Below, piece by piece: positions 1-57,000 of a stretch of DNA of 64,000 nucleotides. The stretch lies in contig OY855910.1 in assembly GCA_963693305.1 (NCBI GenBank), positions 17,320,862 through 17,384,861 on the forward strand. Reading direction: 5' to 3'. Under the pieces are notes generated by a model. That model was not told where the DNA came from. It searched no databases and saw nothing but the letters and a program-made list of their open reading frames with translations. A program made the translations under genes and the position numbers. Numbering within the stretch: position 1 is the stretch's first letter; the number at the start of each line of letters is the position of its first letter. Source of the stretch: Meandrina meandrites. Taxonomy: Eukaryota; Cnidaria; Anthozoa; Scleractinia; Meandrinidae.

Positions 1-1
1 C

Positions 2-298
2 TCGGTAAGAACCGCTGAGTCCGCAAACAAGAAGTCCAGCGTGATTGAAGCAGAGGACAAACCGTGCCTCACGTGGGATTGCAGGCGGAAACGACGTGCA
101 GTGGTTGCTATGCCAACAGATGTTACACCAGAAGCACCCGCCGATGACATGCCTTGTCTCAGAGAAGACTGTCGAGCCGGAAAAAGAAGCAATGAAGATT
201 CCTCTTTGATGAAAAAACTCCGCTTCGCCCGCGCCAACCCTGACTCAGAAAATGACCCAGGCTGCCTATCTTGGATGTGTACGAAAGGTGGGAAATAG
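2..298 (+). CDS. Partial precursor of cyclic C-x4-C neuropeptide-like peptides (3' end)
   Basis: The frame is open from the left edge of the window to a TAG at 296-298, so the signal peptide and start must lie upstream. Three repeated units are visible: PCLTWDC followed by RRKRR, PCLREDC followed by RAGKR, and GCLSWMC followed by TKGGK at the C-terminus. Each has Cys-Leu-x-x-x-Cys, an acidic stretch in front (EAED, ADD, SEND) and basic residues behind. RAGKR has the Gly-Lys-Arg form of an amidation and cleavage site. This layout fits a secreted precursor cut by prohormone convertases into small disulfide-ring peptides; cnidarian precursors are also known to be cut at acidic residues. A splice donor (GTAAGA) follows the stop directly, so an intron in the 3' UTR is likely. 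A paralogue lies at 14304-14573. The repeat units are seen directly; the neuropeptide role is inference. Confidence 0.6.
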   Translation, partial: SVRTAESANKKSSVIEAEDKPCLTWDCRRKRRAVVAMPTDVTPEAPADDMPCLREDCRAGKRSNEDSSLMKKLRFARANPDSENDPGCLSWMCTKGGK

Positions 299-618: not shown

Positions 619-2429
619 CATTTCAGTAGTTTAAAAGGGTTTAGTTTTTACCAGTTTCGGTAGTTATCCACTAAATTTGTCTGGAGCCTTATGCACAGAT
701 GGTACGAAGGGCTTTAAATTGAGTGTAAGAGTGTCTAAATGCTCTGCTAATTTCTCAGTTTTCGGTTAAAATTTCGAGAAAAGTACCCAAGTATTTACTG
801 ATGTTTGCGCACGTGAGCAAACATAATAGGTCTTGCCGAGTTTCCAGGTCATTTTTTACGGCTGAAAGATATTAGGAAACGAGCTGATACTATCTCCATT
901 GTTTGGCTTATAGTGTTAGTGTCATGTTAATTGTTTGATACTAACGACCTAAAGGTTGTCATAGTAATAGCTATTGCATACTTTCGTCAGTATTGTATTT
1001 ACATGTCCGTAATAATTCGATTTATCGCACTCTTTCCAATAAACACCCCCTCTCGCCTTTGAATGGGTTTTTGTTAAGAAACTCCTCTATTCTAATAAGC
1101 GTCCCCAACACAGTGGATCGGGTAGGAACTCTCGCAAGCTCTAACATGAATGGCTCGCTTACCTTCGAGAGAACAAAAGAACAAACAACAGGAACAATGC
1201 CCCTATCCCCCAAAGGGGCCTTATTTTCATGGAAGTGTGCTCAAAGCGATCTCTGAAGACAGTGAGTTAAGGACAGTGAGAGACCATGCCTCACCACGGA
1301 TTGCATACGAGATATATTACTTCACAACAAGTTTCTGAACGCCCATATTCTCAGAAATGGTTCACGTTCCCGCCTGAATGGCTAGCTTACATCACTCCTG
1401 CTTACGAAGGAACTGACCTTCTCATCTCGACTATTGTATTCATGTGAGAGGCACAACTCCTTCAACCGCAAGATGTCTCTTTTGTTTCATACATTCAGAT
1501 GATTATGCTAAAAAATAAATAAGCACTCCATACCCAACAAGCACCTTCCCTGGAATTCCCAAAACGGGGTTCTATCCAGTGACAGACATTTCAGGAACCC
1601 ATGTTTAGTTGGCGTCTGTACATATCCGTTAAGTGTACTATTTTTATGATCCACAGATGTAAAGACAACTGACCTGGCTGACCGCACCATTCTCCAAATA
1701 ATTCTGTAAAAGCTTTGCTCGCGAACTAGTCACCTCCACAAAATGAAATTTGAGGACCTTAATTACCACATAAGCAAGAGAAGAAGTTAACTCCAGAAAC
1801 CATAATGTAAATTGCTCGATGTAAATTTAATCTTAATTTAGTTTTTAGGTTGAAATTGTTAAAAAAACACTTTTATTTGCACTTATATAAAAATAAATTT
1901 TGAGTATAATGAAAGCCTTCTGGTTTGTGCATTTGTTTTCACCAGGGGTTAATCATGAACGGGCGTTGAACTGGTAACTAGGGGCAACGAGGCAACACAT
2001 AGGGAGGCATCGCGGGAGACTGGGGAAGATCGCGGTTTCAACAAAGACATATTTTCGTTAGTTCTCTGCGTTCGCCGAGAGTAATAAAAAAGATATGATA
2101 AGTTCAGAAACTAGCTGGGGGTATCTATTCTGTATTTCTTGGTGTTGTCGTCATCAATAGAGTAAAACAAAATAAGCAACAAATATTACTCACAGCAAAC
2201 ACAGTTGTTCACCCAATTAACAATAGTTTGTGTAACACCAAGTACTTTCCTAGGCATTCGAATTCAACGTAGTAAGCAAGAATAATACAAACCATACTTA
2301 CTCAGACTAATTTTGACAGTAAGAGTTTGCTTACAACGGTCAAATGCGACATATTTACAACACGACTTGGATCCTGTACATGACATGTGCACAGCTTTCT
2401 CGCGACAATCGTAAGCCAGTTCTAGGTAT
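619..2429. other. Intergenic, no gene recognised
   Basis: Only short, unsupported open frames occur here. The stretch near 750-775 resembles the degenerate CAGTTAAAATTT repeat seen again near 7605 and 12700. No coding similarity or RNA gene was recognised. Confidence 0.5.
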
Positions 2430-11690: not shown

Positions 11691-12116
11691 CACAGGTAGC
11701 CAAAGCTTAAGATACGACTGAAAATAAATAAAATGATCTAAAATTGTCAAATGTTTATTGTTTTATCAATCTTATATTACATATTCATGTGAGCTTTGAA
11801 AATTAGCATAATATGCTAATTCTAAAATTGCTCCCTACTAGTCTAAGCGAAGCGAAAGGTAGCACACTCGAACCGCCAGAATGCCGACCCGTGTTCATGA
11901 AATGAGCTGTAATTCTCAAAGTTTGCTATCTTCCCCTCAAAACGCCTCAAATTCAAAGGCTTCGATAGTCGTTCTATAAATACATACCGAAAAAGTGCCC
12001 AATGTTGCATCCTTTCCCCGGCAAAACGGCAATATTTCAGTGGTAAACCTCCACGAACCATCCGCGGCCCGAGCGCCTCTGCAATTTTTCTCATTTAATC
12101 ATATGCAATTTGGAAC

Positions 12117-12234
12117 CACAAAAGCCACTTTCTAGGGGAGGTGTATGCAATGTCGCGTGCGACACATGATTTGATTACACTTCATGTGTTGCACGCGACA
12201 TTACATACACCTCCCCTAGAAAGTGGCTTTTGTG
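12117..12234. repeat. Near-perfect hairpin inside the 11691-12668 element
   Basis: CACAAAAGCCACTTTCTAGG at the left is matched by its inverted copy at the right end. The arms run about 55 bases to a centre near 12175 with only a few mismatches. It directly abuts the truncated SINE head. Confidence 0.75.
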
Positions 12235-12235
12235 T

Positions 12236-12495
12236 TGGACTCCGGATCGGGCGGTCCGGGTTCGAGCCCTGGCCGGGGCACTGCGTTGTGTTCTTGGGCA
12301 AGATACTTTACTCTCATAGTGCCTCTCTCCACCCAGGTGTATAAATGGGTACCGGCGAATTTACTGCTGGGGGTAACCCTGCGATGGACTAGCATCCCGT
12401 CCAGGGGGGAGTAGCAATACTCCTAGTCGCTTCATGCTACGGAAACCGGGATAAGCTCCGGCCTGATGGGCCCCTAGGCTCGTATACAGACTTTA
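12236..12495 (+). mobile_element. tRNA-derived SINE, copy 2 (head truncated)
   Basis: Shares TCGGGCGGTCCGGGTTCGAG and the downstream GGAAACCGGGATAAGCTCCG block with the copy at 359-618, in the opposite orientation. The first part of the tRNA-like head is missing, replaced by the hairpin at 12117-12234. The tail reaches the right inverted arm of the host element. Confidence 0.75.
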
Positions 12496-12674
12496 CCTAC
12501 CTTTCGCTTCGCTTAGACTAGTAGGGAGCAATTTTAGAATTAGCATATTATGCTAATTTTCAAAGCTCACATGAATATGTAATATAAGATTGATAAAACA
12601 ATAAACATTTGACAATTTTAGATCATTTTATTTATTTTCAGTCGTATCCTAAGCTTTGGCTACCTGTGGTTTCT

Positions 12675-13408: not shown

Positions 13409-14049
13409 TTAAAGGAGAAGTTCACTCCAGAATGGCCATTTATTTTCTTTACGCCAATAAAAAGTTTCTACAAAAATATGTTATTCACCAAAATTTCAGC
13501 TCCCAACGAGCGCTAAATCCCTACGAAATCTTTCTCTAAAGTAGCCCAAAATTCGACAACTGAACGCCGCCATCTTGGAGCTAGTAATGTATGCATGACG
13601 TCAAAGAGTTCAGCCTGAAGTTTAGCGGGAAAATTTAAATACTCGAAACTCCTTGTTTCTTTGTAGTGGCTTTTGTTTGTCAAAATGCCTGTTTGTGCAG
13701 CTCTATGTTTCTCAAACAGAGCTTCAAGAGATACAAAAAAACCTTTCACCTTTCTTTCCTTTCAGACAGGCATTTTGACAAACAAAAGCCACTTCAAAGA
13801 AACAAGGAGTTTGAAGTATTTAAATTTTCCCGCTAAACTTCAGGCTGAACTCTTTGACGTCACGCATACATTACTAGCTCCAAGATGGCGGCGTTCAGTT
13901 GTCGAATTTTGGGCTACTTTAGAGAAAGATTTCGTAGGGATTTAGCGCTCGTTGGAAGCTGAAATTTTGGTGAATAACATATTTTTGTATAACCTTTTTA
14001 TTGGCGTAAAGAAAATAAATGGCCATTCTGGAGTGAACTTCTCCTTTAA
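13409..14049. mobile_element. TTAA-flanked foldback element with 284 bp arms
   Basis: The arms 13409-13692 and 13766-14049 are inverted copies with only a few differences, around a 73 base spacer. The ends read TTAAAGGAG and CTCCTTTAA. TTAA at both ends suits a piggyBac-like target site, but no transposase is present. The two open frames in this element (13513-13749 minus, 13673-13945 plus) encode the same peptide because they are mirror copies of one arm, so they are not independent genes. Confidence 0.8.
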
Positions 14050-14303
14050 TTAATAGCTAGTACGATATTTCATCTGGTCGATATAGTGCAACAATATCGA
14101 CAAACCTAGAGTACATTGAATTTAAATGAGCAAACTGAAACAGTGAAAAGGACATAGCTGAGAAAAATACCGTAAATTGAAACTTGATATTTGCTCCATT
14201 TTACAGTTAAATAAAGGCGCACACAAATTATGCTAAAAAGGGTGAAACTGAACCCCCAATCTGATTCCCAATTTAAATTTTATTATTTTTTTGTCAGATA
14301 AGG

Positions 14304-14573
14304 ATGGATGCCTGGCCGTTCGTTCTCCTAAGCCTTCTTCTAAAAGTGATGACCATGACAGACGTGGTAGCCGCTCAAAATCGACCTCTTGAAGTCTCCA
14401 GTGCCATTCAAGACCAATTTGACGTGGGCTGCCTCTCCTGGGAATGTAAAGGAGGAGTGATAGAACGCAATAAAAGGGCGGAGAAAAGGGCAGAAACGAG
14501 CAAGCTGAAGATGCTGCAGTATTTGAAAAGGTATGACGTAAAGGTGACGTCAACGTTTCAGCCAAGGGGCTAA
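14304..14573 (+). CDS. Secreted precursor with one C-x4-C neuropeptide-like unit (89 aa)
   Basis: Residues 1-25 form a signal peptide (hydrophobic core WPFVLLSLLLKV, Ala-Ala cut site before QNRPLE). The mature part carries VGCLSWECKGG near residues 41-51, nearly the same as GCLSWMCTKGG at the end of the precursor at 2-298. Downstream are dibasic sites in NKRAEKR and LKR, and the protein ends STFQPRG. The acceptor TTTTTTTGTCAG at 14286-14297 lies six bases before the ATG, so a non-coding first exon is expected. AATAAA lies at 14606-14611, only about 35 bases after the stop. This is a single-peptide paralogue of the first precursor; the shared motif plus a signal peptide make a peptide hormone or neuropeptide likely. 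The receptor and true cleavage ends are unknown. Confidence 0.65.
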   Translation: MDAWPFVLLSLLLKVMTMTDVVAAQNRPLEVSSAIQDQFDVGCLSWECKGGVIERNKRAEKRAETSKLKMLQYLKRYDVKVTSTFQPRG

Positions 14574-20382: not shown

Positions 20383-23300
20383 TTAAATGTTTTCTGGGCC
20401 TTCTTGTGGAACATCTTTCACTAAGATAATACGGTTAAATGCTCGGAGACGTTTCCAGAGCTGTACATACACTTTACACTGTACATACATGAAGACCAAG
20501 CCGCCTGTGAAGCCAATAGCTACCACCACCAGCTTGGTCCAGAAAGGCCAATCTAACTGCCCCTCCCTGATTTCCTCTGCAGTTCGCTCTATCAGAACCC
20601 ACAGTGACCACACTACGCATGTGATAGCAATCACATGAAATGACACAGAGCACAGGATCTTACGACGCTCACTTCTTGTCATGTCCAGAGCTTTCCACTA
20701 AAAGAAACAATAATCAATTACTATTTTTGTTACAATTTTCCAGATTATGTACCAATCTTTTACTAAACATCTAAATTTAACTGTAATCTTGCTAAAGATG
20801 TATGTTATAGACACAAAATGTCAAGTTTTAAAATCAAAGTTTTTTCCGATATGTGTTGTCTTAATTGTCATGTTTGTTGCCGCAGTGGGTTTTTTAATTT
20901 CTACTGAAGATAAAATGGTAATAAGAGTGTTTACAATATGAGCATTTAACACAATGCAAATGGTAAAATTTATACCTTAATTAATAACTTTGTGGGGCTT
21001 TTTGCAGCCCCATCACTGTTTTTTCTTGTTTATTTCAGTGATAAATACCGTATTAATTTTCCTCTATGTCTTCTGAAAACAACTCATGTATTGTAAACAG
21101 GATTTACATGTATACTAAAGAGCCCCTCCTTGGAAATAAGCTTTTCATACTAAGTTTCTGTATTGATTTTTCTTTGTTTGTCCAAATATTATCTTCCATA
21201 AAGACAATTTTGGTTAGCATCCCAAAAGTAAATGAAGATTTTTTTTTATTAACACTTTTTTTTTCATGGGCTCATTTTGAATTTGTAGTTTTTCCTGACT
21301 TTTGCTTCCCAATGCTCCTTACCAGTAAACAATTTTTACATATTAGCTCCATGAAGCTCAGTGAAATTCCTGTCAGTTCTTACAAGTATTTGAAAATTCT
21401 ACAATACCAGTGGGAAAGAACCCCTGAACCTCCAAGATTCTTCACGAGACAGAGTTGTTTCATCTTCCTAAGCCCTAGATAATAAATTCTTTACTACCCT
21501 AATCAGGCTTGGCCCTGTTTATTCTGTGTTCATGGGCCTAATAGCTTAGTCTCACTCCATTAAAGGGGCTTTGTCACGGATTTTAACAGATTTTTGAACA
21601 GCCAAAGTTTATATTTGTGTCGAAGGTAACCAAAAAATAATAGTCCATTTTCATTAATAATTGCTATATTAGAGCACCGAAACTGTTAATGAGCATCTTT
21701 AGGTGCAGATGGCTATGATGGAAATGGATTACAACTTGAAAACTTTAGCTAAACTTTTCACGTTGTTTCTGCATGTCTACAAAAAAAACGATATTTATAG
21801 CTGTAGTTAGATTTCTATCCACATATTAAGGTTATATCTTCCTTTAGATGTTCAAAGGTTACAATTTTCATGGGTAAAGTTGCCTGCCACTAATTTCAGA
21901 ACAGTTTAGACCAAAAATCTGCGAAATCCCCGTGACAGAGCTCCTTTAACAAGCCGCAAAAATTCTTTGCCAACATCCTGCCACCTTGACCTTGTGCTTG
22001 GACAATAACTCATATGTTGATATTAGCACTAAAACAAAAACTGTATTCCACAAACCCTGCAAGATTTTGCTATCATAATGACAGCAATGGAACACAGGCC
22101 TGTACAGTAGAATCTGCTCCATTATTCCTCCACCATGAACAGCTTTAATTGCAAATGGGCTCTTGAATGCTTATGCAGTTTGTATACTGTTGACATGTAC
22201 CCTTAGGTTGTTCAACAGTGCATACACACGACTAACCTTTGTGATAGGCTTCATCTTGGATTCCATGCGAAACTCATATTTACACAGTTCACATTTCTTA
22301 GTGTCTGAACTCTTGATCCATCTCTGCAGACAGCTCTGGTGTACATATTGCAAAGAGCCAGCACACAGGCAAGGAGAGATCAGAGGCTGGTCCGGTTCTG
22401 CCTCACAGTGGCAAATTCTACAGATTTCCACTGAAGATGTCATTGAACTCAGTGATATACTCTTCTTGGCTGGTGTTTTAGGCTTGTCGTTCGTGTTTTC
22501 CGTGGTTGGTGTTGTTACTTGCCCGTCTGAAGTTTTTGGTTTGGAATTCTGTGAATTATAAAATATACAAGTTTATAAAATATCATTTCAACAAATGTGT
22601 ACATGTATTGTTCTTATCCTTTAAAATGATTTACCCAATTACCAAATGATCTTTTTAAAGAGATTTAATTCCTTTCAATTAAAAGCACACTGGCCTTGAA
22701 ACATACCTACCCAACCAAAACAAAAGCAGAAAATGCACAAAAACTACCAGTTAAAGGCACATAAATTTTACTGGGAACGACTTCACTAACAAAGCTTCTG
22801 TGTGTTACAAGGCTTACAGAACACTTTAGGACTGCTCAGTAACTGTTTTTTTTTGTGGCATGTTTTGATTGCACATGTAAAATACAAGCACTGCTCTTGT
22901 TCTCTTCATGTATAAAATCTCAATATCCCTGTTTGTTATAAATTACTTTTTTAGTCCAAACTATGGGGCACACAATATATATTTTACATTTAACTAATCA
23001 TCACAACTACATGTACTTTTAACTTTTGAACATTAAATTTCCATTGATACACAAGAGCTTCATGTATGTTGCCTTTCATTCAGCACTATAGACAGAAAAG
23101 ATGACGGCACAGAAGATGACTGCATCAATCAGCACCGACAAAATGCCAGAACAAGCCAGTGATGGCATGCCATGGACAATGAGTTCAAGACTGACAGCAA
23201 AGGACACAAGAAATAAAAACTTCATAATGAAGTTTACACAAACCAAACTGCTCCTTTGGAGCCACCACTTAAAAGTTAATGACCAACAATGACTTATCTA

Positions 23301-34780: not shown

Positions 34781-37234
34781 ATGAAGTCGATTTTCGTTTC
34801 CGTAGTTTATGAGGCAGTTGTCATCTCGGCCACAGTAGTCACCGGTAGCGAACGCCTAATATGGTCTTATCTCAAAGTACCGTAAACAAGAAAAAATTAA
34901 GCCCTGGGCTTATATTTTCTCAACCACTCTTATCAGGTGGCTTATTTTCGGGGAGGAGGTGTACACAGAGCGCGCGCGGGGGAAGGGGGGGGGGGGGTGG
35001 AATTATTTTCATAGTTTTACGTTGTATGCTACAGACTAAAGACGCACCCAATAGAGCGTTTTCTTATGACGTCACGGCAGCCATATTGGTGTTCCAAAAC
35101 AAAGAGACGGCGGCCATATTGGTGTACCAAGTCATTCCTCTGGGAATTAAACTCTATTTTTATGCAAAAATAGTAATTTGTTTTAGTAAACCAATATGGC
35201 TGCTGGTCACGTGAGTGAAAACGCTCTATAAGCCAATTTGTAAGAGTTCACCCAAGACCATAACCGTTTTAAGTCCGTAGTTAACCCCTGTGTGTGGCCA
35301 TTCCGCAAATAAAGCCTCGCTGTTGAGCAGTTCTTTCATGTGGTACTGTTAATTATGCTGTACAAGGTGGTACTAAGGTTTAAGCTTGTGGACGGTTGAT
35401 GGCGTTAACCATACCATAGCGTGTGCTATTAACCTTTACTGAGTAGTTTTAGTGTGTAGCGCCCTTGTGAAATCTCGCGATCGGTGTGCGGACTTATTCG
35501 ATTCAGTGAGTTTGGGCGTTTCCATTTTGGAAGTGAAACGGTTAACAGTTTTATAATAATATAGTAGTCAAAACAATTTCCAAGCCTTGCCCAAAAGTGA
35601 TAGCTTTTCAAACTAACAGTGGATCCTTTTACCCCGAAGAGGTTAACTCAATGAACTGTTGTTTCATAGATAAACTGGAAGGAGACATCAAGTTGACACC
35701 AAATGTAGAAGCAATTGTCGCAGAGGGCGTAAAAACGAAAGGGAACAACAAACCAGCAGCGAGAGGAGCAGTGAGCGACAAGATTTATCTGTGGACAAAT
35801 GGTGTTGTACCCTATGTCATTGATTCGGCCTTCGGTAAGTGTTCAGAATCAGAACGTTTTGAGATTCGTGTAATGAGTCATATGACTGTAAACTCTAAAT
35901 AAAACAAAACTTCAGATTTGATCCAAATTTTAATGTTTCATATATGTCTTTCACATATTCATTACGTTATCCACTCCATTTGCGGGACATTAGAACGTAC
36001 AGTTGACCTGCTTCCAACGTATCAGGGCGTCATAGCTCAGTTGGTAGAGCATCGTACCGGTATCGCGGAGGTCACGGGTCCAAATCCCGTTGTAGCCATA
36101 TATGTATTTTCAGGCATAAAATAGCCTGCATAGCAAGCGTTCCCGTGCGAGCGAAGCACAATGTTCGCGTGCGAGCGAGCACTTCGCTACGCATGCTATG
36201 CTAACAAAAATACAATTTGTTTAAATTGCTTACGCACTGCGAGGATCATTTCGTTCATTTCACTTTTTCATAATGTTGTTTCGCATAGGATGGTACAAAA
36301 TTTATGCATAGTGCACGTGTAAGGCGTGTAATTGTTCTGACGTTCTTGTTGCCAGCGCTGTTTGATACGTCTTTTTTAACACTTTGCGAGACACTAGGTT
36401 CCTAAAATGATGCTCAACTTGCACACTATATCCAGTAATGGAGATAGTGATTTTAGCGCATAGGGTACAACACTGAGATAGTGCAAGAAAACCTTAAAAC
36501 TATTCTTACAATTAAGCTGATAGACTTTATACTGAGGCTCGGCTGGGCGGTACATTTTGGAAACGCAGCTTTATCACATGTCATTCCAATTTCCATGTGC
36601 TATATCCTTCGATAGTATATTGAAAATAAGGACAGATATACCAGGAGAAAAAACTTAATAAACACTGAAAACATTAACAGTATAGTACTGTTAAACTTAA
36701 CTGTCCTTGTTGTTATTCAGATAGCTATCCAAGTGACAAGCAAGCCATACAGAATGCTATCAGTGAAGTGCACCGGATATCATGTGTCAGATTTACACCA
36801 AGGGCAAGTGAAATGTATTATGTACGCATCATTAGGGGCAACGGGTAAGTGAAAAACAACATCAAAAACAATACGAAAGTAAGTTAGTACTAGTAGCAGC
36901 AATGCTAAATACCCCAGACACGTCTAATAAACGTTTATGTTGTTGTTGTTGTTGTTGTTGTTGTAAGTAAGCGGCCAGTCAGTCAGTCAGTCAGTCAGTC
37001 AGTCAGTCAGTCAGTCAGTCAGTCAGTCAGTCAGTCAGTCAGTCAGCCAGTCAGTCAATCAGTCAGTCAGTCAGTCAATCAGTCAGTCAGTCAGTCAGTC
37101 AGTCAGTCAGTTAGTCAGTCAGTCAGTCAGTCAGTCAGTCAGTCAGTCAGTCAGTCAGTCAGTCATTCATTCATTCATTCATTCATTCATTCATTCATTC
37201 ATTCAGTCATTCATTCAGTCATTCAGTCATTCAT

Positions 37235-37272
<38 letters not shown>

Positions 37273-40200
37273 AGTCAGTCAGTCAGTCAGTCAGTCAGTC
37301 AGTCAGTCAGTCAGTCAGTCAGTCAGTAAGTAGTAAGCAAGCAAGCAGGTACGTACGCACTAACTCTATATAAGATATTGCTATATTCCCAACTCCCCTG
37401 ATAAACTTTCTAGAAAGATCCCTAAAAGTGCATCGAAGTCGGCCGGGACAAACGCAGCATTCTTCACTTCACCAGTATAATCCTAAGTATTATAGTCATT
37501 GAAATCTAACTTAAACTGTAAAAAAAACGTTCTGTAAACTATCTTGTTTACTTCTTAACAAGTTCTTTGCATTTTACACGTTAAACAGATGCTGGTCTTA
37601 CATCGGAGAAGTAGAAATGTCTGGTGGTCAGCCAATCAGCATTGGAAGTGGGTGTGGTTTCATTGGAACTGTCTTACATGAGATCTTGCATGCTGTGGGT
37701 TTCTTCCACACTAGTTCTCGTTACGACCGTGACTCGTATGTTGTCGTATTACCGCAAAATATCATAGGAGGTAAATACGTAGAATTGTTTGGCGAAAAAT
37801 GCAAACTCTTTTCGAATTAACAATGACTTCGGCGTCCCCCACCCGTGGTGATTGTTTTCTTTTTAAAAGTTCCCTGATAACTCCCGTAATATCAGGGGCG
37901 TCCCTTAGGGAGGGTTCTAGGGGGTTCCGAACCTCCTTTCGAGTTTCAAATATTACAAATCATGACATTTGAGAAGCAAATCATTGAATGAGAACCGCGA
38001 GGATCTTCAAAATATTTTTCCTTCTTTAACGTGACATACATATAAATTACTTCATAGAAAGTAAATAAACAATAAACATGCGTTTTCAAAGGCTGCATAA
38101 CGTCCATATTTCTTGAGTGACTTATTTCAGACGGATAATTACCCCCCCCCCCCCCCCCCCACTCCGCTTTCGTATTGGCTGGGATGCCCCTTGGATATAC
38201 CCTTTGACTTATGCCTTGTGTTGCTCTGCAGGACTTGAGCACAACTTTCAAAAATATACTCACGATGAGATAGACAGACTGGAAGCCCCCTATGATATGA
38301 CGTCATTGATGCATCTGCCTGGGAAAGCCTTCAGCGAAAATGGTCATAACACGATAGAGGCACGTGCCGGAACTCACGTGCCCTTAGGACGGACAGACGG
38401 CCTCTCGGAGATTGACAAAGCTCAGCTCAATTTACTATACAGCTGCACAGGCTACCCAAGTAAGTAAGGTCTGATCAAATATTCAATTTCAATATTTTAA
38501 GCACAGACAATTTTACTGTGATAAAAATGCTAAGCATACACCCAGGCCAACATTTTGAGAGAAAGGCAATAAAAGATCTGCGGTGAAGAACGTTAATCTT
38601 TAGTATTCGTTCTATAGTTTACTGATGCAATACAATGAAGCACATTCAGAACAAAGTAACACTGCGAAGCTCTACCGAAGCCTTCCATTGTTAGTTGCAA
38701 AAATGTGATAGTTTCATTTTGTTTGAAGAAATGTAAGCTATTTGTACCTTAAAAATCTTTGACAATTGAGTTGCACAGTAAAAAAATATATTCCACGAAA
38801 AATGACTGTAATTTAATTGGGCTTTTAAAACACAATAATCATTAGCTGTTAACCAATCAGTGTATACCGTATCAGTTATTTTGTAAAAAGGCATGCAGAA
38901 GTCCACTTTTTAGACTTCTGAAGAAACGTGTTACAGGTATGTGCTCGCTGATGTTTACTCCATACTTTCAATGCCTGTACAGGTTGTTATAAAGCGTTTG
39001 GTATGGAATCAGGTAAAATAACGAACTCACAAATAACAGCCAGTTCCTACAAAATGTATTTTGAACCACACCAGGCCAGGTTACACATGAAAGCCAGTGC
39101 CTCGGGAAATGGCGCGTGGTGCGCAGGTCAGAGTCATCAACGGGGAGAGTGGCTTCAGGTGACTCATGCATAATCGTTGTTTATTGGATACGTTGCGGTT
39201 CAATTTTATACCCTTGGTTTACAATTTGGTATTTCCCTTTGTTCTGATGTATGGTAATAGATAATAATGAATATAAGACAAAGAGAAAATAATATCAGTT
39301 GGGTTCGGTTCAATAATTATAATACTCTATTAACTAAAAAACACATCTTTAATTTTTTCATCACCTGCACCGAAATTGCCATGTTACGTGCATTTTGAAT
39401 GCTCGTCAAACTTGTTTGCAACACAATAATCCGGCGTTGATATATGTTAGTATACTTTCCATGCTTCCCAGTTTTTAAAAACCGGGAAAATGCACCCACT
39501 TGTCTGGATGTGTTGATATTAAAGGGGCACTGTCACGGACATTTTTTGACTTTTTCAGTAAAACGGCACCAAAATTACTACTAAGTACTTTCAACCATAC
39601 AGGAAACGCTCCTAGAACATAAAGGGAAGGATATCTCGTAAATTGTTTAAGGAAGAGGGTGACCGTAAATATTTTTCATCAATTTTTCCAAACCACAAGG
39701 ACAGAACTTGAAAAAGTCAGGCTGACTTTTTCAAGTTGAGATCTAAAGCTCCCGATGGTATCGCAGTGATATCACTTTATATTTAGCTTCAGTACTCTGG
39801 TATAGTAATTTTAATTTTTGAAGGTATGCTCGTGACAGTGCCCCTTTAAAGGGGCAGTAGTATCACGAGAGGTCTTCTAAGTTTTTGGTGTAGAGTATGC
39901 TAGATTTGTAAAGGTGCACTCACTGATCAACAAAATAACCTTTAAACACAAAATGACATAAATTGACGTTCTAAGATGTAAACAAACTATTATCAATGGT
40001 TTATTACTGGTTTTCCTCCAAGTAAACTTTCAAACTTGAAACCTTCGGGCCGACGTTTTCAAGTTTTTCGTGACCAGCACACTGTGTTTCAGCAAGGTTA
40101 GTTGACTGTTAGTGGATTTTCAATTAATGCCAACACCTTCGTTGGATTTTCAAGTGGCATTAAATCTTGGCGAGACTGCCTCTTTAAGAGGTGCGGGAGT

Positions 40201-41924
40201 TTGACAAGAGTTGAACAGTTCTGGTGAAATTTAAGTAAGTTAAAATCTTAGCACAATATGCGTTTTACTGACTGCTGTCTTGTTAAGGTTGATCTTGGAG
40301 GAACGAAAAGGGTTACAGGTATTGCAACGCAGGGGAAAGTGGATTTTTTTGTCAACGCCTGGACAACAAAACTTGAAGTGTGGTACAGCATGGATCAATC
40401 TAATTGGTATCAAGCATTCAATGGTCAGGTAGGAGTATGTTTACTGAAGACATCGACGCATCTCTATGACTTATTAGGGTCTGGATGGCAAAATTTCAGC
40501 CATTTTTCTCTGTTTTCGTATCTTTTATAAGCATAAGGTTGACAGTTGACGCAACATTCGAAACTGTGTATGCACAGAAACATGATGTTACTGTTAACTG
40601 AATGGGAAAAGAGAAAAAACATTTAGGGTTATTTTTTTATGTACATCTTAGAGAAGCAGATGCTTGCGTCTTGGAAATGTTGTAATAGATCACTTTCATT
40701 TAATAATTTTAGACGGTTGATGCAAACTTTGACATGAATTCAGCCCAATATAACCAAGCACCAGTGTCTTTTATCGCTCGGTACGTCCGATTTGAACCGA
40801 CATACTGGTACAACGAGATTTGTCTCAGGGTGGAGATATATGGCTGTGACGGTGAGTTGAACGGCTATAGCTAATTACAATAGTTTCAGCTTATTCTGTT
40901 CCTATAAACAGATAATGATTTAAAATAACACATAAAAATAAACGGAAATTATAAGAAACCCTACGAAAAACACATTGATAGTCTTAACTCTGTGGACAAA
41001 ATTCAATCAACATTTATTTGGGAATGTATGGATCACGCAGTGGTGACAGCGCCCCCCTCCCACCAATGTGGCTCGGGTTTGAATCGCGGGCCACCTGGGG
41101 CCCGTTTCTCATTCAAAGTTTCAGGCCTATACACTTCCCTGTTTTTAAGATACAGATAACTACAAAAGGCTTTGCGGGCCCGAAAAGTTTCCGGAGCTTT
41201 TGAGAAGCGGGCCCCTGGCTTCATATCTCTGAGTTGATTCTCGCCCTTACTTCGAGGGTTTTTCTCCTGGCTCTCAAGTTTTCCTTCTTCCGCAAAAACC
41301 AACACTTCTAAATTCCAATTGCTGGCTTACAACTGACGTCACGGCAGCCTTGCTGGTGGACACGAACAAAGCGTTTTGCTCCGCTGGGAACTAAACTTTT
41401 TTATCATGCAAATTCTGCGAGAAAGTTTTTTATTGTTTTGACCACCAACATGGCGTCCTTGTCATGTGGCTGTAAGCGATCAATTCCATAAGGAAACCTA
41501 AGGATCACAAGTTTGTCTTTCGTAAGACTGTTTTGTGCTACCCTCCTGAAACAAAGCTAATTTTGTTTAAAGGAACTCTGTCACGTGGATTTCGAAGATT
41601 TTGGTCTAAACTGTTCTGAAATTAGTGGTAGACCGGGAACTTTAACCCATGAAAAACATTATCTTCGAACATCTAAAGGAAGATATAACCTTAATCCTTA
41701 ATCCATTTCCATCGCAGCCATCTGCAGCTAAAGACGCTTGTTAACAGTTTCGGTGCTCTAATATAGCAATTGTTAATAAAAATGGACTATTATTTTTTGG
41801 TTTCCTTCGACACAAATATAAATTTTGACTGTTCAAAATCTGTTAAAATCCGTGACAAAGCCCCTTTAATTTAATCAGGACCTCCCTGAAAACCACATTA
41901 GTGAGTGGAGCCTCCTGCATAAAG

Positions 41925-48000: not shown

Positions 48001-51000
48001 AATCCGGATATTTTCTTACGCCGTTCATGCGATATGACAACAAATTGTTTTCAATTAAGGCTCGTTAGAAACGTTGCGTCATAAAAGCAAATGTCAATTG
48101 ACGTCATTGGTCATATGCACGGCTCGCTCTCGTGTGTAACAACAAATGAATTGACTTTAGAGAATGTTTTCTTCGTTTTCCAGCTATGTGTGGGGTTCGC
48201 CCGAGGGAGTCCAAGAAACTAGCAACGAGACAGTGTTGTTCGACGACTCCAAGGTTACAGAGGACGACTGGGTGTTGGTTGAAGAAATTAGAAACGACAG
48301 CGGCTCACAAGAGCACGGACGCGTTTCTTCACTACAAACATTGATTGAGGAAAACGAACCGCAATTCAACGAGTCTGAAAAAGACGAAGTTCCCGAGCCT
48401 GAAGGTTCGTCGGAGAATGACACTACGGATTTGAGCGACAAGTCCTCGCTCGGGATTTTGTTGGTGGATAAACAATCAGACGCGAGCGACAAGTCATCGC
48501 TTGAAATTCTTTTTGCTGAAGTTCAACCCAGTGAAGGTGAAACCCAAGACAACTCAGACATCTCCATGAAAACGGACGAAACTGATTTTGGCGAAAAAAC
48601 TTCACTGCAGTTTCTCTTTGACGAGTCTCTCCACAATCATAGTACTATCGCTGGAAAAAACTCCGCATCGCAATTTACTCTCAAACCGCTCCCCGATCCA
48701 CCGATTGTTTTAGCGCCAAACACTGGCCAATCACGTCCTTTCTACAACAGATCGTATAGCGCCGACTACTACCGAGGAGTTTCGGAAGTGGCTATCAAGC
48801 CGACAGTGTTAAGGCGGCGTCACGTGTCGAGAAATCAAAAGCGTACTGGCGATTCAGCGACTGCTTTGGTTGGTCAAGTTGCACTTCAGAAGAAAGCCAA
48901 ACAACCGGGTCCAGAGGGAACGTCAGGGGTGGGCAGGGGAGAGGAGACGAGAAGGCGAACAAGGAGAGCAAACAGTGTGGCGTGCGCACAATGTGACAAC
49001 ACTCACGGCAGAAGAAGGAAGCGGACTGCTGACAAATACAGCGGAAAAGGCGGCCGAAGAAACTGCTGAGAAAATACTGTAATGCAAAGTAGGTCGATAT
49101 TATTGGACGTGTTACAGTACAATAACTGAGATGCCATCATATTTTTGCTGGCCTTTTCATAGTGACTCTCGGGCTTTACGTCGCCCATTTGATCTCGTGA
49201 GCTCTTCTTTTCCTCGCACACTTTAATGTACAGCTTTCTTATTAAATAAACCAAAAACTAAATCCTGGACGTCTCCAAGTTGTTAGTCAATAAGAATCAT
49301 TGCAATGAATCACTTTGCGAATCGGAGAAGCACGCGAACGCTTCCAATTGACTTTGACAGATCATTCGTGCCGTGTCCAGTCAGATGGTTAATCAAACCA
49401 CAACTTATACTGTATTTCTGACCACAAATGGTTCTAATGTTCATGCTTTTCTGATTCGCACTGTTAACGTAAAGAAAAAAGTCATAGTATCAACTTAAGT
49501 TTGTACAAGGCTTGCGTTTAAACTCTGCAGTCTGCGAGCCATATATATAAAACAAACTTTTCAAATTAGCTCAAAATAGTGGATAAGAATATTAAATCCG
49601 ATGACTTGAACTCGAGACTACCGAGCTTGTGGCAGGGAGGGCCTGAACCCGAGACCTCTCCATTACAAGACAAGGCCCTAAACGGAACCACTCGGCCACA
49701 ATACCTCTTCAGCTGCTTAGCACTGTAATTAATTATTCACTTACCAGTAGACAATGTGCCGTATCCACCAAACAGCACATTAGCTAAAGACCGATTCATA
49801 GCCTTGCACATGATGTAGGACAGGATACCTCCAGAGAAGCCCACAAGAGCTCCCACGATGGTCAGCAAATCGTTGTTCAACATGAACCCCTCTGCACAGA
49901 GAGCCCAGCCACTGTAGCTGTTGAGAACAGTGATGACCACAGGCATGTCAGCTCCACCGATTGACGCTGTCATGTGAACACCCATGATGGATGACAACGT
50001 GGCGGCGGTACCTGTAGTCCACAACATGGTGAAGAAGTGGATATTTTTAGTTTTACCAGAGAATGCAAAACATAACACTACAATCTCATATTCTTCTAAG
50101 TACCCAGCTTTGTCCTTTCCCCCTCCCTGATGTTGTTTCGGTATCAAATCTTGAAAACTAACACTGACAGGACCAAGGGAGATCGTGTCTGTCCCAAAAA
50201 CGGGTCTTCTATTGTAGAATGGAGACATAACTTATCACCATGTTCAGTATTTCGCACTATCGGTGCATTTACTTTGACGTGTGTTTTTCTGTTAAAGTAC
50301 AAAATACAAGGTTCGTTCTCTTTTAAGCTTTTGAAATTTCATGACGTTCCATGACCTTTTCCATGACTTCTCCAATCTATCTATGACCTATATTTGACCA
50401 TTTTCCAGGAAATCATCTTTCATTTTGGGTACATTTTTATCATTTTTGTCGCGAGAAAAAACTAAAGTTTACTATGTTCTTTTTAATAAACATCGTTTGC
50501 CGCGACTTTCCATGACCTACACTTAAATCCCATGACTTTCCCGGTTTTCCATGACCCGTACGAACACTGAAAATATCAAGAATTTAATTCATGATAGGCC
50601 TTACTGCCGACTATGTTTCTTCAACCGTGAAGACACACAGTCAAAGAAAATGTACCCACTGGGTGACAAAAACTATTCTGATTGGTCAAATAATGTTGCA
50701 TATAATGTGTGATGGAGCAGTAGAGCAACAATAAAAAGAAATAAATCATTATTTTGAAAACGAATTCTGCAAAATTGCTGTTTATTATCATTATTAGACT
50801 AGGATCTTACCCAGCATAGGTAATCCAACTGCAGCACTATCAGTAGCCATAAACCAACCCATGGCTCCAACATTAGCCAGTGCCATACCGATGTTCAGTT
50901 GGTTCTTGAGTGGTAGATTCAGTGCTTTGGAATCAAGCAGAGCGTGAAGTTTTCCAAAGGCCACCAAGGAACCTGTAAAGGTCACCCCACCAATGTAGGT

Positions 51001-54000
51001 GCCCAGAAAGATAGCTGCTTTATGGACGTTCCCTGCGGGGTCATCAGGAAAGAGATCCACATCTGCCATGTACTTGGCAATGGCTGTAAGGACAGCAGCT
51101 AAGCCAACAAAGCTGTGAAATGCTGCAACCAGCTGAGGGAGATCACTGACAGCAATGCGGCTGGATATGATGGCTCCAATGGTACCACCCACACCCATCA
51201 TAGCACCCATCTGTGTCAGGACGTCAGTGGAAGGCGCCAGGGCACCAATAGTCGCAGTCATACCGGTACCTATGCCAATAATTCCTAAACATAATACAAA
51301 CCATAACTGAGTTAGAGTAGACACTGGCAGTATCACAGCAAGCCTGTCCACACTTGAAAAAAGCTGCTGTTGACAACTTAGCCAAGCATTCTTTGCGTTT
51401 CTCAAACGTTTTCTCTTGAAAGATCCTGGACAGGCAAATTTTCCCAATTAGCGGGCACATTTATTTGAGACATGGAAGTTTAGAACTTCTTTTTTGTGTC
51501 TCTGAATACATCTTTTTCAGTTTATGTTCAATCAATGAGATCTTCCTCAGAGTGAGATAAACAAAATTTAGATGAATGCCCACATTGCAGGAATATACAG
51601 GTGCATTACATGAACTCTTATTTGAAGGTTATAATCATGCTAAGCTTTGGTAGAACTGTCTCAACAAAAATTTTACAACATTTTGGTCAAAATTAATGAG
51701 AAGCAAAACAGCCTGTCTCCCTCCCACTCTGTTTTGTTATATTCGGCAGTGTAACACACTCTCCTAATCCATATAATTATGTGTAATTATGCATGGATCT
51801 CCCATTTATTGCAAGAGAGCAAAAAGCAAAGACTTCCCTGAGGAGCAGTAAAAGTTGCTCTGCTCGTGAAGTTCACTTACCAAGAGCATTTCCTTGTCTT
51901 GATGATGTCTGAGTTGAGAGGCCGGCCAGAGCACCAACACAGCACAGTGATGATGCTAGGTATGCCATCTGATCAATATCAGGATACCCAGCCATCTTAG
52001 CCGCAGCATACCCACCTAGAACAGCTGCTCCAGGAATGGCATACAGGTATGTATACTCAGGAGGGTCCCCTTTGGAAAAGAAAATTTATAAATATTTGAA
52101 TATTCCATTAAACATAAGGGAACAAAATAATAACAACCAAAATTAACCCTTGTCTGAAATATTCTGTAGTTGGACATCATGTCTGGCCATTTTTTAATCT
52201 TAATTGAAAATAAACACCTGAATATCATTTCCCAGATTAATTTACATGTAAACATACACATACCGTGAGCAACATTGTAATTTGATTACACACTACTTCT
52301 TTTGAATGTCCTTTATGAAAGTTCAAAGTAATGTCAGGTCTGACCACAAAACTTTTTGTTTCGTATGACCAAAATGGTGACTTATTCTGAGACATGTGTC
52401 CTTTCAGCAAAAAAATAATAATTATTTTGAAGCCTCGGGATAGGGCCCGGAAAAGTAAGATAGAGATTACAGATTCACAATCACAAAACTACTGTAGCCT
52501 GAGTTACCGCATAGACCTTGTTTCAAATCATGGCTATCCAGTAACCTCACCAATCTGCCGAGTCTCTTACTACCTAAGGAAATGGCAATAGACTGAACAA
52601 TGGCACTGAGCATTATCACCTGGTCTCCTGAACATATCCAGCATGCGCTTAGTGATAATGAATCCACCAGTGATGTTGATACTGGACACCAGTGTTGCAA
52701 TAGCAGCCAATGAGGTGGCAGTGTTATTGGGTAGTACTCCTCCTCCCATTAAAACCAATCCTCCCGCTGCCGTAATGCCTGATATGGCATTAGTGACGGA
52801 CATTAGGGGAGAGTGAAGGGCAGGCGTCACACCCCAAACAACTTTATATCCAATCACACCAGCTAGAGAAAAGGTAGTTACCATGGTTGCAAAGGCAGGG
52901 TTAGGTGAAACGATTCCCAGGCCGAGAAGGGAGCCTAAGCCAGCTGTAAAGTAAACAAGTCAAATAATTAATTTTATTAGTTACTGGCAAATTAAGTAAT
53001 AAGCATTTTTAATATAATATTGTATTATGATCTTGCCCTTAAAATACACTGACGAAGGAATCACAAACTGAAAAATAAATAAAATATAAATAAATACATC
53101 AAATAAATAGGAGTCTGCAGTGTTTCCAGATCAAATGATGAACAATGTACAATATTAGTTTCACATTTTTTTACTCTTCTTTTGCTTATTAAATGCAAAT
53201 TGCTAAGTACATGTACAAAGTGTATACTAGGCAGCAATTTCCAAGCCAACCAACGATTGTGGCAGTCTCTGCTATCCATGATTAACAACTTTGCTTTCTT
53301 TGCAATACCATTAAAAGTTCTTACATGTACTAGCCTGTGTAGCAAGCGTTCCGGTGCGAGAAAACTGCTATGTTAGGGTGCAAGTGAAGATTCCCATTGC
53401 GCAAAAATTGGAATCTTTGCTCGCACATGACACATGGCACTATACATGTACGAAAGTCATGTATTTTGTGTAAAAGAGGTGGCGTCAAAGCAAGTGAAAT
53501 GGCAAATTGCAATATAATATTTCTTCATACTTGCTGTAAGACCAGTCTCCCATGCTGCAGCATTCAGCGGCGATTGCTCTGGTGGCTTGACAATTGCTTT
53601 TGGCTTGGGTGGGGAAGGTGCAGGAACATCCACTGCAGGAGGTGGCCACATCATCTTTCCATCTTGAAGTACAATAGAACCACGGACCACTTCATCCTTG
53701 AGATCTATGACAAATTCTCCTTTGCCTTTCTCACCCATTGAGAAGAGGTAATTTTTCAAGTTGTTGGCATACAGAGTACTTGACTGAGTGGGTAGTCGAC
53801 TTGGAAGGTCAGTATATCCAACAATCTTTTGAATAGAAAAAATCAGGTTGGTACTTAGTGTAAATCACACAGATACAATCAGGTGCTTGCTCAGTCCAAT
53901 TATGAGCAAGCGACATGCAGTTACCAAATTATTTTGATTTTTTTTACCTATATAAGATGAGCCCCATTCGCAGATATGCCACACTCTGAATTTAAGCAAC

Positions 54001-57000
54001 TCAACTTTGGAAAAAAGTTTATTTTTAAAAGAAATCAAAGGAAATCCAGAGTCAAGTCTTTAGAAGTCTACTTCATCGAATAGAAAATACTTCAAAGTCT
54101 TACCCACAATTTTAGCTCTTAACAGAAAACATACACATCATGTCCACGAACTTTGACATATGCTTTATCTTTTTCTGGTATTTGTTGACAGGTATTTCCT
54201 CATTCAACAGTCGAGAGTTTTTCCATTTTGTGTGGCAACAAGAACATGATCCTTGTTGCATTTGTCGACTGGACAACGGAAAACTGGACACGGGAAATTT
54301 ATGGCACCTTTTCCAAATGTTCTCACAGATAAGCCACACCCCCAATTTCAAACAAATGATTTTTGGCAAAAAGGAACAGCTTATCTGCAAATGTTTTCAG
54401 TAAAATACACGTGTGCATGTCCACTTACATTAACACCATTGTGATTGTAGAGTTCCCCAGGTTTGGTTAGTTCACAGTTCCCACCAGTCTCAGCAGCCAA
54501 GTCCACTATGACTGAACCTGGCTTCATTGACTCCACCATCTCTTTTGTAATCAGTTTTGGAGCAGGTTTTCCAGGGATCAGTGCTGTTGTTATGACAATG
54601 TCTACTTCCTTGCACTGTTTGGCGAACAAAGCCATTTCAGCTGCTATGAACTCTGGAGACATCTCCTTTGCATAACCACCAGTACCTATCAGAGAATAAA
54701 AAGAGAACTATGGACTGCCATCCAGGGTTCAAAATAGCAGCCGGCTGTTGGCGGTAGCCTGCACTTTGACGACACTTGCCGGCTACTTTTCACCGAAGAA
54801 ATATAAAATATCATGCCTTGATCGGCCAACTGAAATCAAAGTTGCTGTAAGTAAAGGGAACATTTTATATCAGACAATAAAGCAGCTACAGGGCTAGAAA
54901 ATGCGACTCACTGGTGGCTAATGCGAACAAAATTTCATCTTTGGCGGCTAAAACTTCTGGTTTTGCGGGTAGTCGCCAAATACTGTGTGGCGACTAACGG
55001 GCCCCCCACCTTCTCAGGTATTGTGTCCCTCCAGAAAATTATATTGGAAGATCTTATTTGCTTCTCAAACATTCAAAATAAGAAAAGAAGTCACATTGCT
55101 CCAATCCATTCTTTTGCTTTGCCGTAAAATGTTTTCACTTTGAAAAACTTGCAAATGGCCGACTGTATTTGAAATCGCCCCAGAATGCATTGCAAACCTA
55201 TGGGTACGTCATGTATGCATATGGATTGTGTCCCTTGAAACGCATGGCTCCAGCTAAACAGCCGGGGAAAAAATGAGCCTCGACAAAAAAAGCCGACAAA
55301 TTCAGGCTAAAAACGAAATTTTATTTTGAACCCTGCCATCCCATCCTGAGAAGTTTTGGGGGTCCTCTGTCCCCTCCTACCTACCCCCCCCCCCCCCCCC
55401 CTTAATTCAGTGTCCCAGTTAAGAAAGTCAGGTTAGTCAGGTACATGAACAACAACCTCAAGTGATTTGGTGGGAGTGGTGGTAATTTGACCTGTAACTT
55501 GGTATTCCCTGCTGCCACTTGTCTTAAAATTAACTGATCTGGAACCCAGCAATAATTATTGTAGGACAACCCTGGGAATCACTGCAATGGTTATTTACAT
55601 GCTAAATATTTTAGAATTTTACGTGCAAACTCCATGTTAATACTATCCCTACATTGATTCTTACACCACTTGCTTACATTAGGTTTAAGAGTATTGTAAC
55701 ATACCTTCACCAGACTCTTCAATTCCAGTGATCTCTAGAAACTCTGCTCCCAGTGATTGAACCTGTTCCTTTACAGCTGCTCGTGTATCAAAGCCGCGAA
55801 CAATGGCTCCCATGTTTCTAGCTGTAGCTATTGCCGATAAGCCAGCAACTCCACCACCTGAAACAAAAAGAACCAATTGAGACAAAGCCACTGACCTATA
55901 ATAAACATTATATTTTTCAGCCCTGGCAAAGTTACAGCAACATGTATAGAACAGCCGATGTAGTGAACCGCTTAACATGAAGTCCCTGACAAAAAAGAAA
56001 TAAAATGATCTTTGCAGTGTGCAAGTGATTTGCCAGTACCAACTTACATGTAGTATGAAGCCCTGATATGTTGTGGGTACATGTATGTCCATTCTAATAT
56101 CCTGGGTTATTAGAACCTATGACTGAGCTGCCCATAACAATTTACTAAGGCTTCATACAATGTGCATGTACCTATCACATTGTGTTGTTCCAGAAAATAT
56201 CCATACCCCTCCCACGCAAGGTTTTTTGGTTTAACCCCCACCCCTCCGGAATTTCCACTTAAGTCCCATACTTTCCTTTTAAGATTTTGGCCTTTGAGAC
56301 CCCCCACCACCTCGGAATTTCCACTGACCTTCCATGGGGTGGGTATAGATATTTTCTGGAACTGCACATTCCACTGCACAAGATATAGGATAAGATGAAC
56401 ATGGAAAAACAGTAATACATGCACATGTATAAACAACAAACTAAAATCAAAAGGCCCATTTGGACTGCCTTGTGTCACTTTTTTTCAAGCTGCCACCTTT
56501 TTAAAAGCTTTATTTGAAACTGATCGATTTTCACGTCTTTTATTGGGTTGTTCCAGAAAAAATCCACACACCCCCGACGGATGGGATTCTGGAAATTCTC
56601 GCGGGAGGGGGGTAAAAGGCTCTGGAATGGGGGGTTGAACTTCAAAAAGTCTTCTGCATGGGTCATTTCAACCGATAATTCAAGCGCTTCGAAGGTTTAG
56701 CTCGGTGACATAACATAACATAAAACATAACATAAAACTTTATTTATCCTCGAATTTAATATAGCTAAGACAAGCTAGTTTCTTCGAGAAACAAATGAAA
56801 TATATATTAAAAATAAAAATAAAATAAGTAACAATATTAAAAATATTATTACATCCGTAACATATCAGATAACAATATTATTATACTATACTACTATAGA
56901 CAACAATATTATTTCAGACCCTGAAAAAAGTAGAAATATTTTTGTTCATGTATTTCTCACCTGACATAAATGATAATCTAAGTTCCTTCACAGGTCCTTG

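Follow-up and report, generated by a model that had tools for sequence, protein, structure and literature searches.

Known scleractinian neuropeptides include the GPRGamide, RFamide, GLWamide, RPamide, SITRFamide, FHIRamide and RWamide families, and their known precursors combine a signal peptide, peptide copies and basic processing sites, as does the stony-coral gene that we describe here. Urotensin II has a six-residue C-x4-C ring with FWK inside, and the precursors of urotensin II and of oxytocin/vasopressin hold one hormone copy, against five rings in the coral precursor. Sea anemones have multi-copy toxins, and these are not known to be single-disulfide rings with amidation signals. In the survey by Koch and Grimmelikhuijzen (2020), seven neuropeptide families were found in seven stony corals (PMC7523074); as presented there, none is described as cyclic, unlike the predicted coral rings, and in the main text the terms cyclic, cysteine and disulfide are absent and cystine appears once, for vasopressin.

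The cyclic FRamides of Scyphozoa and Cubozoa (CKGQMCWFRamide and CTSPMCWFRPamide) are also cnidarian, were predicted from precursors and have the same six-residue C-x4-C ring (PMC6909153). Like the coral rings, they have acidic or G/S/N residues in front and basic sites behind. However, they share a WFR tail after the ring, whereas the coral rings have the Trp inside the ring and differing tails, and in the text of that report they were not found in Octocorallia (PMC6909153). A neuropeptide precursor of the hydrozoan Clytia gives GPPCRWGCamide, likewise with a single predicted cystine ring with Trp, but this ring is C-x3-C and is found among linear RWGamide-type copies, with no multi-ring layout described (PMC8638164). 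The cnidarian GLWC, GFWC and WGC peptides named in connection with Nematostella (Prabhu and Reddy 2025; PMC12440616), compared here by name only, also bear Cys and Trp, and a distant link to the coral rings is conceivable. Oxytocin and vasopressin contain a Cys1-Cys6 six-residue ring (PMC9545775), with the same C-x4-C spacing as the coral rings, whose disulfide is predicted. The Am-1, AV-1 and AV-2 precursors of anemones resemble the coral gene, by their description, in that one precursor gives rise to several cysteine peptides (PMC3040730).

The gene reaches into a 64,000-nucleotide stretch of Meandrina meandrites DNA (the window, C8:17320862-17384861 of an assembly of 551 Mb in 56 contigs), which begins mid-gene. 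A preliminary description of the window had proposed a three-ring precursor in a frame at 2-298 of the + strand. This frame is open and holds the three rings CLTWDC, CLREDC and CLSWMC. The rings are real, but the gene is larger: in the ~19 kb of upstream DNA examined, the frame continues for 68 further codons, with the start ATG, a hydrophobic leader and rings 1 and 2, so that the precursor has five rings and not three. The ATG lies at C8:17320659 (window coordinate -202), 203 bases 5' of the window, and the coding sequence (C8:17320659-17321159, 501 bases) is a single unbroken frame with a 166-residue product. A possible splice acceptor (TTTCTTTCAG) is found immediately 5' of the start. The leader begins MSAWLFVLCISITAVAITG and is hydrophobic and signal-like, as judged by hydropathy and not by SignalP; being in the same frame as the rings, it is a candidate for the signal peptide that had been expected upstream.

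The rings and the residues behind them are, in order, CLTWNC-SRKR, CLTWEC-KR, CLTWDC-RRKRR, CLREDC-RAGKR and CLSWMC-TKGGK-stop, with ten cysteines within the 144 residues past the leader and no Gly in the SRKR of ring 1. The preliminary description had placed acidic residues in front of the three window rings and basic ones behind. The first part stands, as each of the three has an acidic residue no more than six residues before it, while the second fails for CLSWMC, where the TKGGK tail runs to the stop with no dibasic site. As had been noted, only one of the three, CLREDC, carries a Gly-Lys-Arg. The features that lie in the window are collected in Table 1.

Table 1. Features of the five-ring precursor gene and its partial or reduced copies in the window
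Feature	Position	Strand	Basis
Precursor codons 69-166 plus stop (3' part; reading frame begins at base 2)	1..298	+	93% identity to P0002 over 166 residues
Ring 3, CLTWDC, with EAEDKP in front	65..82	+	Frame translation
RRKRR basic cleavage site behind ring 3, which has no Gly and is expected to give a free acid	83..97	+	
Ring 4, CLREDC, Trp-less	155..172	+	Frame translation
RAGKR, amidation and cleavage site behind ring 4	173..187	+	
Ring 5, CLSWMC	263..280	+	Frame translation
TKGGK C-terminal tail, Gly a possible amide donor	281..295	+	
Decayed fragment, a partial copy of the stretch with rings 1 and 2 (SWKC ... PCLTTDC ... HNKFLN)	1228..1340	+	81% DNA identity to the coding sequence
One-ring paralog P0001, 89 residues, signal-like leader MDAWPFVLLSLLLKV, ring GCLSWEC	14304..14573	+	Frame and profile match

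One could argue that such motifs arise by chance. When the 98 window residues were shuffled, three C-L-x3-C motifs appeared in none of 200,000 trials and two in 8, and when the 144 post-leader residues were shuffled, five C-x4-C motifs appeared in 0 of 200,000 trials and four in 16, which rules out a chance origin of the window three and of the five. Likewise, the frame is no fragment of a larger protein, an outcome that the preliminary description had named as one that would refute it: there is an in-frame stop 6 bases 5' of the ATG, and 166 codons follow, as read in the exon. In the 202,862 bases around the gene, on both strands, a strict ring pattern was found at eight places: each of the gene's five rings, one site each in the decayed copy and the paralog, and window position 2131 (CISWCC), the last of which we take as a chance match.

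A protein search with the window frame gave five homologous clusters, with E values from 1.1e-57 to 4.2e-35. A profile made of these clusters, the window frame and the one-ring paralog retrieved 34 proteins at E <= 10, all with E values of 2.1e-8 or better, namely 33 homologous clusters and P0001, the window's own paralog. Among the relatives are ACROYT_G019099 from Oculina patagonica, annotated as a hypothetical protein, and OS493_012415 from Desmophyllum pertusum, annotated as a hypothetical protein / secreted protein, both from the order Scleractinia; multi-ring homologs, for which a search among anthozoans had been suggested, are thus present in other corals. In a tree built from our 32-row alignment (which omits P0001, P0026 and the window gene) minus P0032 and P0034 and plus the window gene, this gene and P0002 (93% identical) are paired within a group of six rows that includes Oculina (support 97/93), so the window species is probably a stony coral close to Oculina. 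The 32-row alignment was also used for the ring-position counts, for Pfam, PDB and NCBIfam searches and for AlphaFold2, while general ring counts cover all 34 proteins plus the window gene.

These 35 proteins contain 148 C-x4-C rings, with five rings in 19 proteins, four in 10, three in 3, two in 1 and one in 2. The window gene has five, 32 of the other 34 have two to five, and P0001 and P0026 have one each. Trp occupies position 4 in 109 of the 148 rings, and position 2 is Leu in 120 rings and Ile in 23. In 134/148 cases an acidic residue stands within six residues before the ring, and in 129/148 a dibasic site lies within eight residues after it. Past the leader, a cysteine outside any ring was found once among the 35 proteins, in the short P0026; six proteins, including the window gene, have one leader cysteine each (residues 4-10). 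The maximum 10-residue mean hydropathy of the leader is 2.7 in the window gene, and 33 of the 35 proteins reach 2.1 or more. P0032 and P0034 have no hydrophobic start (10-residue mean below 0), and perhaps their listed start is internal.

The rings show different properties depending on their place in the 32-row alignment. The consensus is CLSWDC for ring 1 (n=21, x-Gly-K/R in 7), ring 2 (n=32, with Trp and a dibasic site in all 32 and Gly in none) and ring 3 (n=27, Trp in 25, a dibasic site in 27 and Gly in 0). Ring 4, with consensus CLTRDC (n=31), has Trp in 0/31 and x-Gly-K/R in 29/31, and ring 5, with consensus CLAWHC, has both Trp and a Gly donor in 28 of 28, the latter as x-Gly-K/R in 11 and as a Gly at the protein end or one Lys from it in 17. 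Ring 1 is absent from 11 of the 32 rows, and P0016 and P0017 have a second ring 4. Conservation is higher in ring columns 1, 2, 4 and 6 than in the spacers (Mann-Whitney p 9.5e-8, calculated on columns of related sequences). As the alignment shows, the family sequences differ by whole rings, and the rings hold place-specific ends; such variation in ring number fits independent peptides and not one folded domain. The precursor family is real and conserved, with members in other stony corals.

By comparing the 148 rings with the known systems, we found no WFR within two residues after the ring (0/148), no P-x-G after the ring (0/148), unlike the PxG-amide tail of oxytocin/vasopressin, and no FWK inside the ring (0/148), the consensus forms being CLSWDC, CLTRDC and CLAWHC. 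In addition, no Pfam match to neurophysin was detected at E <= 0.1 among the 32 members. Hence, with no neurophysin, P-x-G, FWK or WFR, we rejected membership in the oxytocin, urotensin or FRamide families, in agreement with the preliminary description, which saw no clear homology of the rings with oxytocin or urotensin II.

Domain searches with the 32 members gave weak Pfam matches only, the best being SVWC (E 0.0018, in 2/32); the first member gave one match, below its cut-off. SVWC and Ig_Rha78A_N (4 members) were set aside as weak. NCBIfam returned a weak HdeA match in 12/32 members (best E 0.00035), which was also set aside; in P0003 it covers residues 12-37 and spans the end of the leader. 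No PDB sequence matched at E <= 1. We predicted the structure of the Oculina homolog P0003 with AlphaFold2, using the 32-row alignment, and obtained a mean pLDDT of 46.5: the first two ten-residue blocks, which correspond to the leader, average 82 and 76 and form a confident helix, and none of the other blocks is above 51.

Directly supported are the gene, the hydrophobic leader, the ring, cleavage and amidation motifs, and their conservation. We consider, with a probability of around 70%, that the five-ring gene encodes a secreted multi-peptide preprohormone, whose products would be cyclic and probably neuropeptide-like signals. Processing, disulfides, neuronal or neurosecretory expression and a receptor are features that we infer for the precursor. 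The leader would be removed as a signal sequence on secretion, furin/PC-like convertases would cleave at KR, RKR, RRKRR and GKR, and N-termini would be set by trimming at acidic or X-Pro sites, whose positions are guessed. Each C-x4-C pair would then give a six-residue ring with one disulfide. The predicted products of rings 1-3 are the free acids (x)PCLTWNCS, (x)PCLTWEC and (x)PCLTWDC, while ring 4 would give (x)PCLREDCRA-amide and ring 5 (x)GCLSWMCTKG-amide or a close variant. In Nematostella, mass spectrometry has revealed dibasic C-terminal cuts, Gly-derived amidation, and acidic or proline-linked N-terminal cuts (PMC11087051). The ring peptides would most likely act as cell-to-cell signals at G-protein-coupled receptors, like other cnidarian peptides; since the ring letters and the ends are constant and the spacers drift, the most parsimonious role is that of a signal that binds a receptor. 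Amidation occurs in most cnidarian neuropeptides described to date, and one point against a preprohormone is that the most constant rings, 2 and 3, have no Gly, so that no amidation is predicted for them. From Hydra, a non-amidated neuropeptide has been reported (PMC12440616).

A different use of the same architecture would be a multi-copy toxin or venom precursor, whose ring peptides cnidocytes or gland cells would release to act on prey or competitors. Venom peptides usually show a diversified pattern, and Gly amide donors are commoner among hormones; the coral rings are conserved single-disulfide hexamers (positions 1, 2, 4 and 6 against the spacers, p about 1e-7) in which the Gly donors are retained, and both points argue against a toxin. 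So does the genome, where a single intact five-ring gene is accompanied by one decayed piece and a small paralog (lower bounds), with no large array. We therefore regard a toxin as unlikely, even though the leader-propeptide-KR layout is common to toxins and hormones and sea-anemone precursors give four to six toxin copies (AV-1, AV-2 and Am-1; PMC3040730). Some toxin or defence peptide role for the ring family is possible.

Slightly less probable still is an antimicrobial or an adhesive/matrix secreted protein, in which the rings would be cross-links or metal or thiol sites. Antimicrobial or adhesive roles have been suggested for taxon-restricted short Cys secreted proteins in neurosecretory cells of Clytia and coral larvae (PMC12225738), and the scleractinian-only 'neurosecretory 1' larval protein presented in that work could be a member of the ring family. 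However, the near-strict C-x4-C pairing, the basic cleavage sites between rings and the conserved Gly donors speak against an antimicrobial or matrix protein, and the predicted products would be mostly neutral or acidic, in contrast to typical cationic antimicrobial peptides. A single disulfide-rich folded protein yielding no separate peptides, which the ten cysteines in 144 post-leader residues might suggest, is very improbable and was rejected, given that ring number varies from one to five per protein, a single unpaired post-leader cysteine is found among all 35 proteins together, the P0003 model is confident in the leader only (mean pLDDT 46.5) and the Pfam matches are weak.

Regarding the preprohormone, its kind is known, namely a multi-peptide cnidarian precursor, and it would represent a cyclic family in stony corals for which we found no description, although an earlier listing is possible. 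By ring sequence and by topic, no account of the family was found in the main texts of the open-licence literature, a scope outside which most subscription papers, preprints and supplements lie; matches of the peptide strings in open-licence full texts were judged unrelated. A conserved cyclic hexapeptide family would offer a new way to study how corals settle, contract or spawn, and rings this small can feasibly be synthesized and assayed directly on orphan coral receptors. Having position-locked rings in one precursor, part acid and part amidated, prompts one to ask whether several receptors are served by a single gene. As a long shot, the oxytocin-type receptor lineage might, on its cnidarian side, be served by these rings of the same size; they would be unrelated or unrecognisably diverged, several to each precursor, and their acid and amide forms would act on different receptors.

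The window contains two further traces of the family. The decayed copy has two TGA stops inside. The paralog P0001, which has its ring at 14430-14447 and, upstream, a putative splice acceptor that ends at 14297, aligns with the ring 2 region of relatives. It gave an E of 5.9e-19 in the profile search, where the profile already contained it, and independent E values of 0.013 against the window gene (83 kb) and 1.4e-4 with P0011 (203 kb). As sole query of the protein collection it matched itself only, which would fit a young, rapidly evolving or decaying gene. Another reduced homolog, P0026 (82 aa), is degenerate, with a leader, an altered ring 4 (CHEIGC) and the lone cysteine; together, the two may point to repeated origins of shortened paralogs. 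With P0002 as query, a search of the whole genome recovered the intact gene and the fragment, missed the paralog and gave one further, weak match; with P0001, the paralog alone was recovered. These searches give lower bounds on the number of paralogs, and more diverged ones may exist. We attribute to chance the weak match, which lies in C14 (L018; E 6.0, 34% identity, one stop), reads CLSCRC and has neither the family Trp nor basic ends.

Two inverted repeats were also detected in the window. The one at 13409-14049 is near-perfect, with arms of 287 nt (97% complementary) 67 nt apart, and stops ~250 bases before the one-ring paralog; our guess is that it resembles a foldback transposable element. 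The second one, at 11691-12668, has arms of 172 nt (99% complementary), and inside it the segment 12236-12502 matches 354-587, immediately 3' of the precursor gene, in reverse and in two pieces (86 and 96% identity). Elsewhere, exons of a MARCH-like E3 ligase lie at 20386-22572 (-), with the RINGv domain at 22174-22572; we take 20386-20697 to be its membrane part, for which the only Pfam match is TMD0_ABC, below cut-off. A CAGT microsatellite of 89 copies (36976-37331) has open frames of repeated VSQS/SVSQ. It is followed at 37515-40527 (+) by frames that contain astacin protease and F5/8 type C domains and may belong to a single secreted metalloprotease, and at 50797-54707 (-) by NAD(P) transhydrogenase frames (PNTB and AlaDh_PNT_C domains).
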